From Actinomycetota bacterium (lineage in GTDB: Bacteria; Actinomycetota; Actinomycetes; Actinomycetales; Dermatophilaceae), in contig JAIUNK010000012.1 in the NCBI GenBank assembly GCA_020161845.1, positions 1-64,000 of the forward strand: 64,000 bases of DNA, in the 5' to 3' direction. The translations under genes and the position numbers were made by a program. The notes below the pieces were generated by a model that worked only from the letters and a program-made list of their open reading frames with translations, searched no databases and was not told the origin of the DNA. Of this stretch, positions 803 to 15,357 are shown in pieces (position 1 is the stretch's first letter; every line of letters starts with the position of its first letter).

Positions 803-1524
803 TTCTTCGGCGGGGTGTAGTCGACGTCTTGGAAATCCGTCACATACCATTGTCCATCGCGCCAGCTGAGCCATAGCTGCGCCAGGACATCGCTGCTCTT
901 GGCCCGCGTCGTAGCCAGACCACTGGGTTCGTGCACCACGACGGGTGAGTTGGTCAGCGGCGCCATCACGTGAATATCATTGACAGTCGCTGCGTCGATC
1001 ACCTCGCCTTCGACGTCCGGTTCTCCGACGTTCAGCGTGCGAAAGTAGATATCGGCCCAGACGCGTCCGGCGTCGGCGTTTTCGCCGACGATTCGTTCGA
1101 GCTTCTTGCACCCAGGGCATTGCGGATCCTCGAGTTTGGGCAGCTGGCCTTTGGCGGGGTCCATGAGTAGACGCCCGTAGGCCTCGATGTAGTAGCGGAC
1201 GAAGGCTTGGGCGCCGGCGTTGGTGTGTTGTTTGGCGGCGGGGGGCATGTTGGCCAGGACGTCGTACCCGGCGGTGGCGCCGCTGGTGCTGGGTGTGGCG
1301 GGGTCGGTCGCGGCGGTGGGGGCGGTGGGGATGGTCACGACGGTGGCTGGGCGAGCGGAGGCGGACGTGGCGGTGGTGGCCGGGGGTTGGCTGGAGCAGC
1401 CGGCGAGGGCGGCGGCCACGGCGGTGGCTGTCGTCAGGGTGGCGGTCAGCGTGGCGGGCCGGGCTCGGCGGGGCCGGTGGCGCCGTTTGCCGGTGCTGGG
1501 TGGTCCTGGTTGGGGTGTGCGCAT
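799..1524 (-). CDS. DUF6318-family lipoprotein, 241 aa
   Basis: A predicted membrane-anchored lipoprotein of unknown function. The ATG at 1524 is preferred because GGAGA precedes it and it gives an Arg-rich n-region, a hydrophobic stretch (TLTATLTTATAVAAALAGC) and the lipobox ALAGC; longer in-frame starts add a non-signal tail. A Thr/Ala/Pro-rich spacer follows. The folded part starts near NMPPAAKQHTNAGAQAFVRY and contains DPQCPGCKKLE and a closing WRDGQWYVTDFQDV, the pattern I associate with DUF6318. It overlaps the downstream PKD gene by 4 nt (ATGA). The family assignment is from memory of the motif, not a search. Confidence 0.75.
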   Translation of the reverse strand: MRTPQPGPPSTGKRRHRPRRARPATLTATLTTATAVAAALAGCSSQPPATTATSASARPATVVTIPTAPTAATDPATPSTSGATAGYDVLANMPPAAKQHTNAGAQAFVRYYIEAYGRLLMDPAKGQLPKLEDPQCPGCKKLERIVGENADAGRVWADIYFRTLNVGEPDVEGEVIDAATVNDIHVMAPLTNSPVVVHEPSGLATTRAKSSDVLAQLWLSWRDGQWYVTDFQDVDYTPPKK

Positions 1525-12221: not shown

Positions 12222-13016
12222 TCAGCGCAGGCAGAGCAGGCAGACCACCGCGAACAGCCAGCTCGTGAACGTGCCCACCAGGAAATACTCGGTCGCGGTG
12301 TCGATCCGCTGCGGCCCCGGCGCCGGCCGGACGGGCTGGCCGCTCGCGTCCACCAGGCTCTCCCGGTGCACCGCCTGCAGTTCGGGGAACCGCAACAGCC
12401 CCTTCGCCGCCGCGATGACCGACGCCGCCGGGAGCTGCCCCACCAGGCCCAGCCCGAGGATGAAGGTGCGCTCCATCGGCCCGAGCAGCCGGCCGCCCTT
12501 GAGGCGCTGCTCGGCGGTGAACTCCTCGCCGTCCCGGGTGCGCGGTACGCCGGTGGCCGCGAGCACCAGGCGCACCAGCACGTTGCCCGTGCCCCATTGG
12601 GCCAGCACCGCGGCCACGGCCGCCACCGCCTTCTCCGGCGGCCAGGACCCGAGCAGCGGGGGATGGGCCCACCCGAACCAGGTCAGCAGCGGCCCGCCCA
12701 GGGGCGTCGCCCAACCCGCGGCGAGCGTCGCGAGCACCGGCGGGGCGAGCAGAGTGAGCACCGTCCGGCGCACTCCCGGAGGATGCTCCGGCGGACCGGC
12801 CACGGCGGCGGTGCTGCCCCACAGCCACGCGGCCAGCGCCACCACACAGACCGCCAGCGCGACCAGATCGGCCGGTCCGGTCAGCCCGGCGAGCGGCCAC
12901 AGCACGACGGCGACGAGGGCGCCCACAGCGAGGGGAGTGTGCCGCCCCAGGACCGTGCTGGAACGCGCCAGGTCGAGGCAGGCCAGCGCGAGGAACCAGA
13001 TGGCCAGCCAGCTCAC
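12222..13016 (-). CDS. Integral membrane protein paired with SatD, 264 aa
   Basis: Function unknown. GTG at 13016 is selected because GGGAGG lies 6 nt upstream and just past the satD stop; the longer ATG reading at 13073 would overlap satD by 41 nt and adds a purely basic tail. At least five hydrophobic segments are visible (for example SWLAIWFLALACLDLA and TPLAVGALVAVVLWPLAGL). The C-terminal third (RLLGPMERTFILGLGLVGQL, then AASVIAAAKGLLRFPE and TEYFLVGTFTSWLFAVV) resembles the membrane half of DUF3307 proteins, which I recall as neighbours of SatD in other phyla. The N-terminal DUF3307 signature is not present, so it is a divergent or partial relative. Confidence 0.72.
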   Translation of the reverse strand: MSWLAIWFLALACLDLARSSTVLGRHTPLAVGALVAVVLWPLAGLTGPADLVALAVCVVALAAWLWGSTAAVAGPPEHPPGVRRTVLTLLAPPVLATLAAGWATPLGGPLLTWFGWAHPPLLGSWPPEKAVAAVAAVLAQWGTGNVLVRLVLAATGVPRTRDGEEFTAEQRLKGGRLLGPMERTFILGLGLVGQLPAASVIAAAKGLLRFPELQAVHRESLVDASGQPVRPAPGPQRIDTATEYFLVGTFTSWLFAVVCLLCLR

Positions 13017-13032
13017 GACGTACCTCCCTGTC

Positions 13033-13764
13033 CTACTCCGGCGCCCTCGGCGCGGCCGCCGACGGATCCACAACCGATGAACGGGTCCCCAGCGGGCCGC
13101 CCAGGCTCTCGTAGGCGGCCAGCAGGCTCCACGCGCCGTTGCGCGCCAGCCGCTGGGACACCGCCGACTGGGTGATGCCCTCCGCGGCCGCCAACTGGGT
13201 CTGGGTCAGCCCGTCCGCCGTCCCGCGAATCAGTCTGACGTCGAGGTCCGACAACGCTGCGAACAGCTCATCGAGGGTGCGCAGGGACGCGGTGACGAGC
13301 CCGCTCAGGGGGGTGCCCACGGCGTCGACGTACGGCGTGCCGCCCGGCTGCGCGACATCGCTGAACCCGGCCCGCACCGTCCCGGACCGCCGTCGGAGGG
13401 CGGCTGCGGCGCTCGCCTCGATGGCCGCCCGGGCCGCCCACCAGCCGGGTCCGTCCTGTACGGCGCCGGACGGCTCCAGATTCTGCACCGGCCCCCAGCC
13501 GAGTCCGTATCGGGTGTCGGTGTCCTCCAAGAGCTCCAGTCGCAGGGCCACCATGGCCGCGACCGCGGTCGGGACGTCCGCGAAGATCCCCTGGAACTCA
13601 TCGCCCAGGGTGATGTGCAGGGGGGACAGCGTCCGTCCCGAGGCGTTGACACGGTCGATGGCGCGGCGCAGCGCGGCATGCATCGCGCCGCGGTCGTCGG
13701 CCCGCCGGGAGCCGACGACATCGCCGATCACCGTGGCCACCGGCCGTCCCTCTGCGATCCACAC
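13033..13764 (-). CDS. SatD-family protein with C-terminal helix-turn-helix, 243 aa
   Basis: SatD-family proteins are named after a streptococcal acid-tolerance locus; their molecular role is not established. Here GDVVGSR (residues 14-20), the LHITLGDEFQGIFAD block, and LGWGPV define the family domain. Residues about 186-208 (LTQTQLAAAEGITQSAVSQR) form a clear helix-turn-helix, so the protein probably binds DNA. The ATG at 13764 abuts a 46-bp perfect palindrome, and TACGCT ends 5 nt before the start, so promoter and operator coincide. The membrane-protein gene follows 16 nt after the stop. Together they look like a self-regulated sensing module, which is inference. Confidence 0.85.
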   Translation of the reverse strand: MWIAEGRPVATVIGDVVGSRRADDRGAMHAALRRAIDRVNASGRTLSPLHITLGDEFQGIFADVPTAVAAMVALRLELLEDTDTRYGLGWGPVQNLEPSGAVQDGPGWWAARAAIEASAAAALRRRSGTVRAGFSDVAQPGGTPYVDAVGTPLSGLVTASLRTLDELFAALSDLDVRLIRGTADGLTQTQLAAAEGITQSAVSQRLARNGAWSLLAAYESLGGPLGTRSSVVDPSAAAPRAPE

Positions 13765-13768
13765 ATAA

Positions 13769-13814
13769 ATCAGCGTAGCACTGATATTGCGATGAATATC
13801 AGTGCTACGCTGAT
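13769..13814. promoter_or_regulatory. satD operator: perfect 20-bp inverted repeat with nested half sites
   Basis: Arms 13769-13788 and 13795-13814 are perfect inverted copies around a 6-nt loop. Each arm is itself an interrupted palindrome, ATCAG-N7-CTGAT, giving four half sites in two 17-bp sites with centres 29 bp apart. The reverse-strand -10 (TACGCT, 13775-13770) of satD lies inside the proximal arm. A helix-turn-helix protein bound here would block transcription. It might also act as a terminator for read-through, but there is no U tract in either direction. Confidence 0.85.
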
Positions 13815-13839: not shown

Positions 13840-15357
13840 TCAGGCCGAGACCCGCGACTTGATCGCCCGCAGGATGTCGTCGACGCGCTCCTTGGCGTCG
13901 CCGAACAGCATCTGGCTGTTCTCGTTGAAGAACAGCGGGTTCTGGACGCCGGCGTAGCCCGTCGCCATGGACCGCTTGAACACGATCACATTGCCGGCTT
14001 CCCACACGTGCAGCACCGGCATGCCGGCGATCGGGGACGACGGGTCGTCCAGGGCCGCCGGGTTGACGGTGTCATTGGCACCGATCACCAGGACCACGTC
14101 GGTCTGGGCGAAGTCGTCGTTGATCTCGTCCATCTCCAGGACGATGTCGTAGGGCACCTTCGCCTCGGCGAGCAGCACGTTCATGTGCCCCGGCAGGCGA
14201 CCGGCGACCGGGTGGATGCCGAATCGCACGGTGCAGCCGCGCTTGCGCAGCTCGTCGGTGATCTCGGCGACCGGGTACTGCGCCTGCGCCACCGCCATGC
14301 CGTAGCCGGGGGTGATGATGACCGACTTGGCGTCGAGCAACATGTCCGCGGCGCCCTCGGCGTCGATCTCGCGGTGCTCGCCGTAATCCTTGGCCTCGCC
14401 CACGACGCCACCGTCGGAACCGAAGCCACCGGCGATCACGTTGATGAAGCTGCGGCCCATGCCCTTGCACATGATGTAGCTCAGGAAGGCACCGGAGGAC
14501 CCGACGAGCGCGCCGGTGATGATGAGCAGGTCGTTGTTGAGCATGAAGCCGGCTGCGGCGGCCGCCCATCCGGAGTAGCTGTTCAGCATCGACACCACGA
14601 CCGGCATGTCGCCGCCGCCGATCGAGGCCACCAGGTGGAAGCCGAGCAGCAGCGCGATGATCGTCATCGCGATGAGCAGGATCAGGTTCGGGCTCTTGAT
14701 GAAGATCGCCGTGAGCACGATGAACAGGCCGATCGCGCCGAGGTTGAGCCAGTTGTGCCCGGGCAGCATGAGCGGCGCCGACTTCATCTTCGCGGACAGC
14801 TTCAGATAGGCCACGATCGAGCCGGTGAAGGTCACCGCGCCGATGAAGACGCCGACGAAGACCTCGCCGCTGTGGATCGGGCCGAGGGATCCGGCCAGGT
14901 CCGCCGGCAGCAGCTGGCCCGCCTTTTCCGCCTCGGCGATCCGGTCGTGGGCGTCGAAGTAGGAGACATAGCCCACGAGCACGGCGGCGAGACCGACGAA
15001 GCTGTGCAGCAGCGCGATGAGCTCGGGCATCCCGGTCATCTCGACCTTCTTGGCCTTCCACAGGCCGATCGCCGCGCCGATGGCCATGGCCACGACGATC
15101 ATCAGGATGCCGGTGAAGCCGGAGCCGGACCGGTCCAGCAGGTCGGCGGTGTTGCGGGCGTAGTCGATGCCGCCGACCGCGGCGACGATGGTGATGACGA
15201 TGGCGAGCGCCATCCCGTAGATCCCGTAGTTGTTGCCCTGCTTGGCAGTCTCGTGCTTGCTGAGCCCGGCCAGGGCGAGGATGAACAGCAGCGCCGCGAT
15301 GATGTAGGCGCCCTGCGCCAGCGTCGCCGGCATGAAGGCATTCACGGTGTCGGTCAT
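13840..15357 (-). CDS. pntB: NAD(P) transhydrogenase subunit beta, 505 aa
   Basis: The membrane and NADP(H)-binding subunit of the proton-pumping transhydrogenase, which reduces NADP+ with NADH at the expense of the proton gradient. The first 290 residues hold eight or nine membrane helices beginning [17 protein letters not shown]. The C-terminal dIII domain shows [20 protein letters not shown], the [20 protein letters not shown] loop and [20 protein letters not shown], all NADP-site signatures. ATG at 15357 follows a GAGGA site and starts 5 nt after the pntA stop, so both subunits are made from one message. Confidence 0.96.

Follow-up and report, generated by a model that had tools for sequence, protein, structure and literature searches.

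A candidate autoregulated satD operon with a periodic palindromic operator array and a membrane-protein neighbour in Actinomycetota

We analysed a 64,000-nucleotide (nt) stretch of DNA from a member of the Dermatophilaceae (contig JAIUNK010000012.1), referred to here as the window, in which the gene satD is followed by a gene for a membrane protein and preceded by two palindromic sites. The two genes may form an operon that the SatD protein itself represses. The features of the locus are as follows.

13033..13764, minus strand: satD; PF16264 match, with an N-terminal class III cyclase-like domain and a C-terminal helix-turn-helix (HTH)
12222..13016, minus strand: membrane partner gene; GTG start, nine predicted helices, of a family found 3' of satD in relatives
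13769..13785, minus strand: operator site 1 (proximal), ATCAG-N7-CTGAT; same geometry upstream of the satD of relatives
13798..13814, minus strand: operator site 2 (distal), ATCAG-N7-CTGAT; spaced 29 bp from site 1 (family spacing, 28-29 bp)
13772..13777, minus strand: likely -10 element of satD, TACGCT, within site 1; read from sequence, with an analogous -10 in relatives
13840-15357, minus strand (as satD): pntB, upstream of satD

The two sites lie within a 46-base-pair (bp) perfect inverted repeat at 13769-13814, whose arms of 20 nt each (13769-13788 and 13795-13814) are 100% complementary and separated by 6 nt. The sequence confirms what a first-pass annotation had reported here: two perfect inverted arms, each a palindrome in itself, a satD -10 hexamer inside the proximal arm (13777-13772 on the satD strand), and a membrane gene that begins 16 nt after the satD stop codon. 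That the satD start adjoins the array holds for GTG 13764, near site 1, but not if translation begins at the second possible start, GTG 13743, which has a ribosome site resembling AGAGGGA. Because the 46-bp repeat is symmetric, the hexamer has a mirror image on the plus strand (13806-13811), which points into the end of pntB.

The 4.39-Mb genome contains a single copy of the double ATCAG array and eight copies of the simple site; the six outside the array are all single and each sit in an open frame of >120 amino acids (aa), frames of a kind common in GC-rich DNA. Among 394 genomes of the class, four carry a double array (gap 8-16): that of the window, G235, where the copy is beside the satD operon, G679, where it is a clear tandem repeat, and G643, where it lies in a repeat-like stretch.

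For comparison we assembled 211 satD loci and kept 176 distinct genes, retaining a gene if its frame matched a profile of 19 relatives at an expect value (E) up to 1e-5 and judging distinctness by the first 120 residues counted from the motif. All of the named loci are from Actinomycetota, and searching the relatives, order and class of the window supplied the genomes with G handles; the sample is unrepresentative of SatD as a whole, since it was chosen by likeness to the window protein. Arms of 5 nt with a 7-nt gap were found upstream of satD in 55 of 79 named loci (an 80th, L102, is cut by a contig end and was dropped); block shuffles average 13.6 loci. Gaps of 9 (50 loci), 11 (65 loci) and, somewhat, 13 (37 loci) were also raised; for gaps 9 and 11 this is expected from the same sites together with neighbouring ones. 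Thus, the palindrome is conserved upstream of related satD genes in its 5-N7-5 geometry, most commonly as TGAAG-N7-CTTCA. Of 131 pairs of consecutive TGAAG sites, 116 have a spacing of 28 bp and 8 one of 29 bp.

The spacers of these sites bear on whether the inverted repeat acts mainly as an RNA hairpin, a terminator or attenuator of pntB, rather than as a protein operator. The repeat begins ∼25 nt past the pntB stop codon and was called terminator-like; it would fold into a strong stem of 20 pairs, 8 of them GC (z -7.4 for the surrounding 98 nt), and a congener that has no satD, G002, carries a 14-bp perfect hairpin after pntB. The spacers of the window's two sites are perfectly complementary, which the half-sites do not need. 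However, the T tail is short and weak, the -10 and the start codon fall at fixed places within the sites, and in relatives the spacers are mostly non-complementary, with at most 3 of 7 positions pairing in 103 of 127 neighbouring site pairs and all 7 in only two (the window and L160), which argues that the sites and not the hairpin are conserved. We therefore regard a chiefly RNA-based role as unlikely, while the element may double as a pntB terminator in the window.

If the sites are operators for SatD, the half-site might be expected to follow the predicted recognition helix of the protein. Site counts were made on 163 of the 176 loci, leaving out 10 without a parsable helix and three (L053, L102 and L168) with <150 bp of upstream DNA; at most one mismatch was allowed to a half-site class, and loci were split according to whether the first residue of the helix is Gln. 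SatDs without Gln have a TGAAG site in 110 of 126 loci and an ATNAG site in 5, and SatDs with Gln have a TGAAG site in 3 of 37 loci and an ATNAG site in 21. The window protein combines Q199 with ATCAG half-sites. Exact ATCAG sites are also found 5' of satD in L129 and L130, from the window's family, in L163, and in a single locus of the non-Gln class, L079. In two trees inferred with the recognition helix left out, 6 changes of the Gln class are counted in one and 4 in the other, which covers 60 of the 163 rows. The window SatD falls among TGAAG-type SatDs, outside the large Gln clade. This placement suggests that helix and operator switched jointly and independently in its lineage, although its branch is long and few branches of the trees are well supported. 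L193 has TTAAG-N7-CTTAA-like sites 5' of satD, a SANSQRV-type helix and no membrane neighbour found. In four loci of genus code g159 (L152, L154, L156 and L158), SatD lacks the membrane neighbour as well as any TGAAG or ATNAG site.

The operator arrays appear to be mostly local to satD, since 17 genomes with satD contain 35 exact TGAAG-N7-CTTCA sites, of which 20 immediately precede the gene; read backward, the pattern gives 4. Thirteen genomes in which no satD was found contain 21 exact sites, 12 of them in one genome. A different regulator might bind the array, with the HTH of SatD acting elsewhere. Such a reading could draw on G235, in which a perfect double ATCAG array lies away from the satD promoter and before an 88-aa frame, but a third party would have to co-vary with the SatD recognition helix just as the half-site type does, and the majority of exact sites are found near satD; we give it only a slight chance. 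The G235 array (L168 1501-1545) runs over the end of the membrane gene, with the 88-aa frame (1212-1478, minus strand) following it, and the satD promoter of that genome has imperfect sites only; SatD may control this third gene in G235.

SatD binding would be placed to affect transcription directly. Inside the TGAAG site, a TAnnnT hexamer is present in 79 of the 110 loci with such a site, and in 77 of these 79 the first in-frame satD start codon comes 6 nt past the hexamer, a peak without counterpart in the other two frames. The distance from a -10 element to the transcript start is ∼7 nt. The 6-nt spacing of the relatives therefore matches that of a leaderless transcript; in the window, 7 nt separate TACGCT from the in-frame GTG 13764. 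The operator lies over the gene's own promoter, as that promoter is predicted from the sequence, and a bound protein would cover the -10 and the start, from which we infer repression. Activation by SatD of its own promoter, with distal sites recruiting RNA polymerase, would fit the lack of a sigma-70 promoter in a consensus scan of the window and the site 5' of the -10 site in 43 of the 77 loci, but is improbable given that one site covers the -10 and that in 57 of the 77 loci another site lies within the start of the coding sequence, as suits blocking.

The window SatD is a member of its family by the curated score (PF16264, 54.3 bits, cut-off 29), and all 19 relatives match PF16264 at E up to 1 (best 2.8e-22). 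An AlphaFold2 model of the protein, with a predicted local distance difference test score (pLDDT) of 90.9, contains an HTH in helices 173-220 (block pLDDT 94-98), with a predicted recognition helix at 199-208. HTH profile matches of the window protein are weak and sub-threshold, falling mostly at ∼180-208, and HTH_24 is matched at E up to 1 by 17 of the 19 relatives. The C-terminal HTH noted in the first-pass annotation is thus seen in the predicted model, but it does not set this protein apart, since in the SatD of haloarchaea and Arthrobacter the PF16264 match extends to include part of the HTH region. Residues ∼1-170 of the model have a class III nucleotidyl cyclase fold (Foldseek/VIA, hhalign), and D15 and D55, invariant in a 75-row alignment (A3), align by hhalign with cyclase Asp positions. 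The role of these two Asp residues in cyclases is metal binding. Going by the model, this N-terminal domain, which had been overlooked at first, is likely the sensor: because the fold and both metal-aspartate positions are kept, SatD probably senses or makes a nucleotide.

The membrane gene is a frequent companion of satD, with a relative of the window's protein 3' of satD in 156 of the 176 loci (iterated profile, E up to 1e-4). C-terminal motifs are present in 154 of these 156 partners (IGxxER-type in 152, ExxLVGS-type in 138, both in 136); the L057 and L080 partners carry neither and may not belong. The partner called at L057 (4612-5412), 22% identical to that of the window, may reflect a frame error or be a diverged copy. 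Among loci without a partner, 17 had usable DNA upstream, and 10 of these keep the operator; with a partner, 123 of 146 do, so that the operator tracks satD rather than the partner.

The window's membrane protein is modelled with nine helices (pLDDT 88.7); structure comparison of the model gave no match to a known fold, and the protein has no Pfam match at E up to 10. It had been likened to DUF3307 proteins. Homology searches led to DUF3307-annotated relatives, not to an unrelated family: the SatD neighbours on two haloarchaeal plasmids have in common with it a C-terminal part, GGRxIGPLER ... AAKGxxRFPE ... TEYFLVGSFxSW (tblastn E 1e-3 and 5e-3; blastp E 1e-11 for a single pair). The likeness stands for this part, which, however, lies outside curated PF11750 (DUF3307), matched in the haloarchaeal protein by the N-terminal part (15-115). 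PF11750 is not listed for any of 71 actinobacterial partners (E up to 1; 24 families listed), nor was it found in the whole genome at E 0.001. A 138-aa SatD neighbour in Sphingomonas has the C-terminal part in common with the haloarchaeal protein (37% identity over 89 columns, E 1e-13 for the pair) and, weakly, with the window protein (24%, E 0.02), and Agrobacterium plasmids encode the same part downstream of SatD (E 6e-5 against the haloarchaeal protein). On these Sphingomonas and Agrobacterium plasmids (L216 2510-3564 and L217 2510-3585), SatD is followed by a short membrane protein that is nearly only the C-terminal part of the DUF3307-annotated proteins.

Taken together, satD and the membrane gene would constitute an autoregulated operon. 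SatD would bind, probably as dimers on the 5-N7-5 palindromes, an array of sites spaced 28-29 bp that lies over the -10 and start of the leaderless satD promoter, thereby repressing both genes, as the anatomy and covariation suggest. Its cyclase-fold domain would probably sense a nucleotide, or make a small amount of one, and the nucleotide would loosen or tighten DNA binding; the membrane protein would be the output or the source of the signal, the weakest step of the scheme. Autorepression through the palindrome, proposed in the first-pass annotation, gains support from the comparison because relatives keep the geometry, the array overlies a predicted leaderless promoter and the half-site varies with the recognition helix. 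We consider autoregulation by SatD very probable and the scheme as a whole probable; nucleotide sensing on its own could go either way, and a physical partnership with the membrane protein is tentative.

Several observations, in addition to the absent sigma-70 match, weigh against this scheme. The covariation is weakened by phylogeny: only 2 independent pairs fall on well-supported branches, a sign test was not significant, with no power at 2 pairs, and the Gln helix may have a single origin. Neither half-site type was found, with 1 mismatch allowed, in 15 of 126 non-Gln and 15 of 37 Gln loci; CTTAT...ATAAG repeats, which depart from the 5-N7-5 pattern, occur in 10 of these 15 Gln loci (L185-L187, L201 and L204-L209). 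Ten of 176 SatDs, six of them from one family (L194-L199), have no parsable helix and were left unclassed; CTTGT...ACAAG repeats occur at L194 and L196-L199 and, like the CTTAT repeats, are unscored and outside the 5-N7-5 count. The adjacent membrane gene is missing in 20 of 176 loci. Finally, the Asn of the cyclase Asn-x3-Arg motif, matched by eye where the aligner left that part unplaced, is Trp in 75 of 75 rows (A3), with the Arg kept in all 75, and among 19 rows (A2) it is Trp in 14, Tyr in 4 and Phe in 1. PF00211 is not listed for the window SatD (E up to 10) and is absent among the best 25 of 33 families for the 19 relatives (E up to 1). Because the Asn is replaced and PF00211 is not listed, cyclase activity of SatD appears doubtful.

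The satD pair is either extra in the window's species or lost in its congeners, since three congeners without satD (L294, L295 and L296) have other DNA 3' of pntB, in the place taken in the window by satD, the membrane gene and a transporter. All three carry past pntB a frame that we take to be malic enzyme, and L294 and L296 have between the two a frame that is presumably 3-dehydroquinate dehydratase.

SatD is a widespread, named family (PF16264; secretion and acid tolerance D, Streptococcus) with no mechanism in the accessible literature. According to the available parts of two accounts, satD is tied to acid tolerance and, while an accessory gene of S. pyogenes, is essential in those strains of it that were tested (PMC11323703, PMC10326533); those parts state no regulator role, operator or cyclase fold, and no SatD regulator is among the literature matches listed. 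SatD and its DUF3307-annotated neighbour are thus already named in databases, and proteins joining a cyclase domain to LuxR are known. The operator, sensor fold and constant partner make SatD directly testable, and if the scheme is true, the cyclase fold would be recast as the sensor of a transcription repressor, tying nucleotide signals to a membrane protein. More broadly, and at somewhat less than even chance, SatDs of Actinobacteria, haloarchaea and Alphaproteobacteria may be one-component regulators in which a stripped-down cyclase sensor reads, or makes and reads, a nucleotide and represses a leaderless operon through a 28-bp-periodic array, together with a Pfam-less membrane module.

The DUF3307-annotated proteins on Halorientalis and Haloplanus plasmids lie beside SatD in the same gene order as the window partner, and the Halorientalis protein is identical to it at 49 of 129 columns (38%) in the C-terminal part; the haloarchaeal protein differs in that its N-terminal part holds PF11750, which is not listed for the 71 actinobacterial partners scanned. 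SatD shares with the class III adenylyl cyclases Rv1900c and Ma1120 the fold, in its residues 1-170, and both metal-aspartate positions, but it has an aromatic residue at the catalytic Asn position and no PF00211 match. The mycobacterial cyclase-LuxR proteins are large, with ATPase and other parts, whereas SatD is ∼240 aa, has no cyclase Pfam match, and has a membrane gene as neighbour and an operator array of its own. In the available text of one account, these mycobacterial proteins (e.g. Rv0386) combine a cyclase homology domain with an HTH in one protein, as SatD does (PMC3466318).
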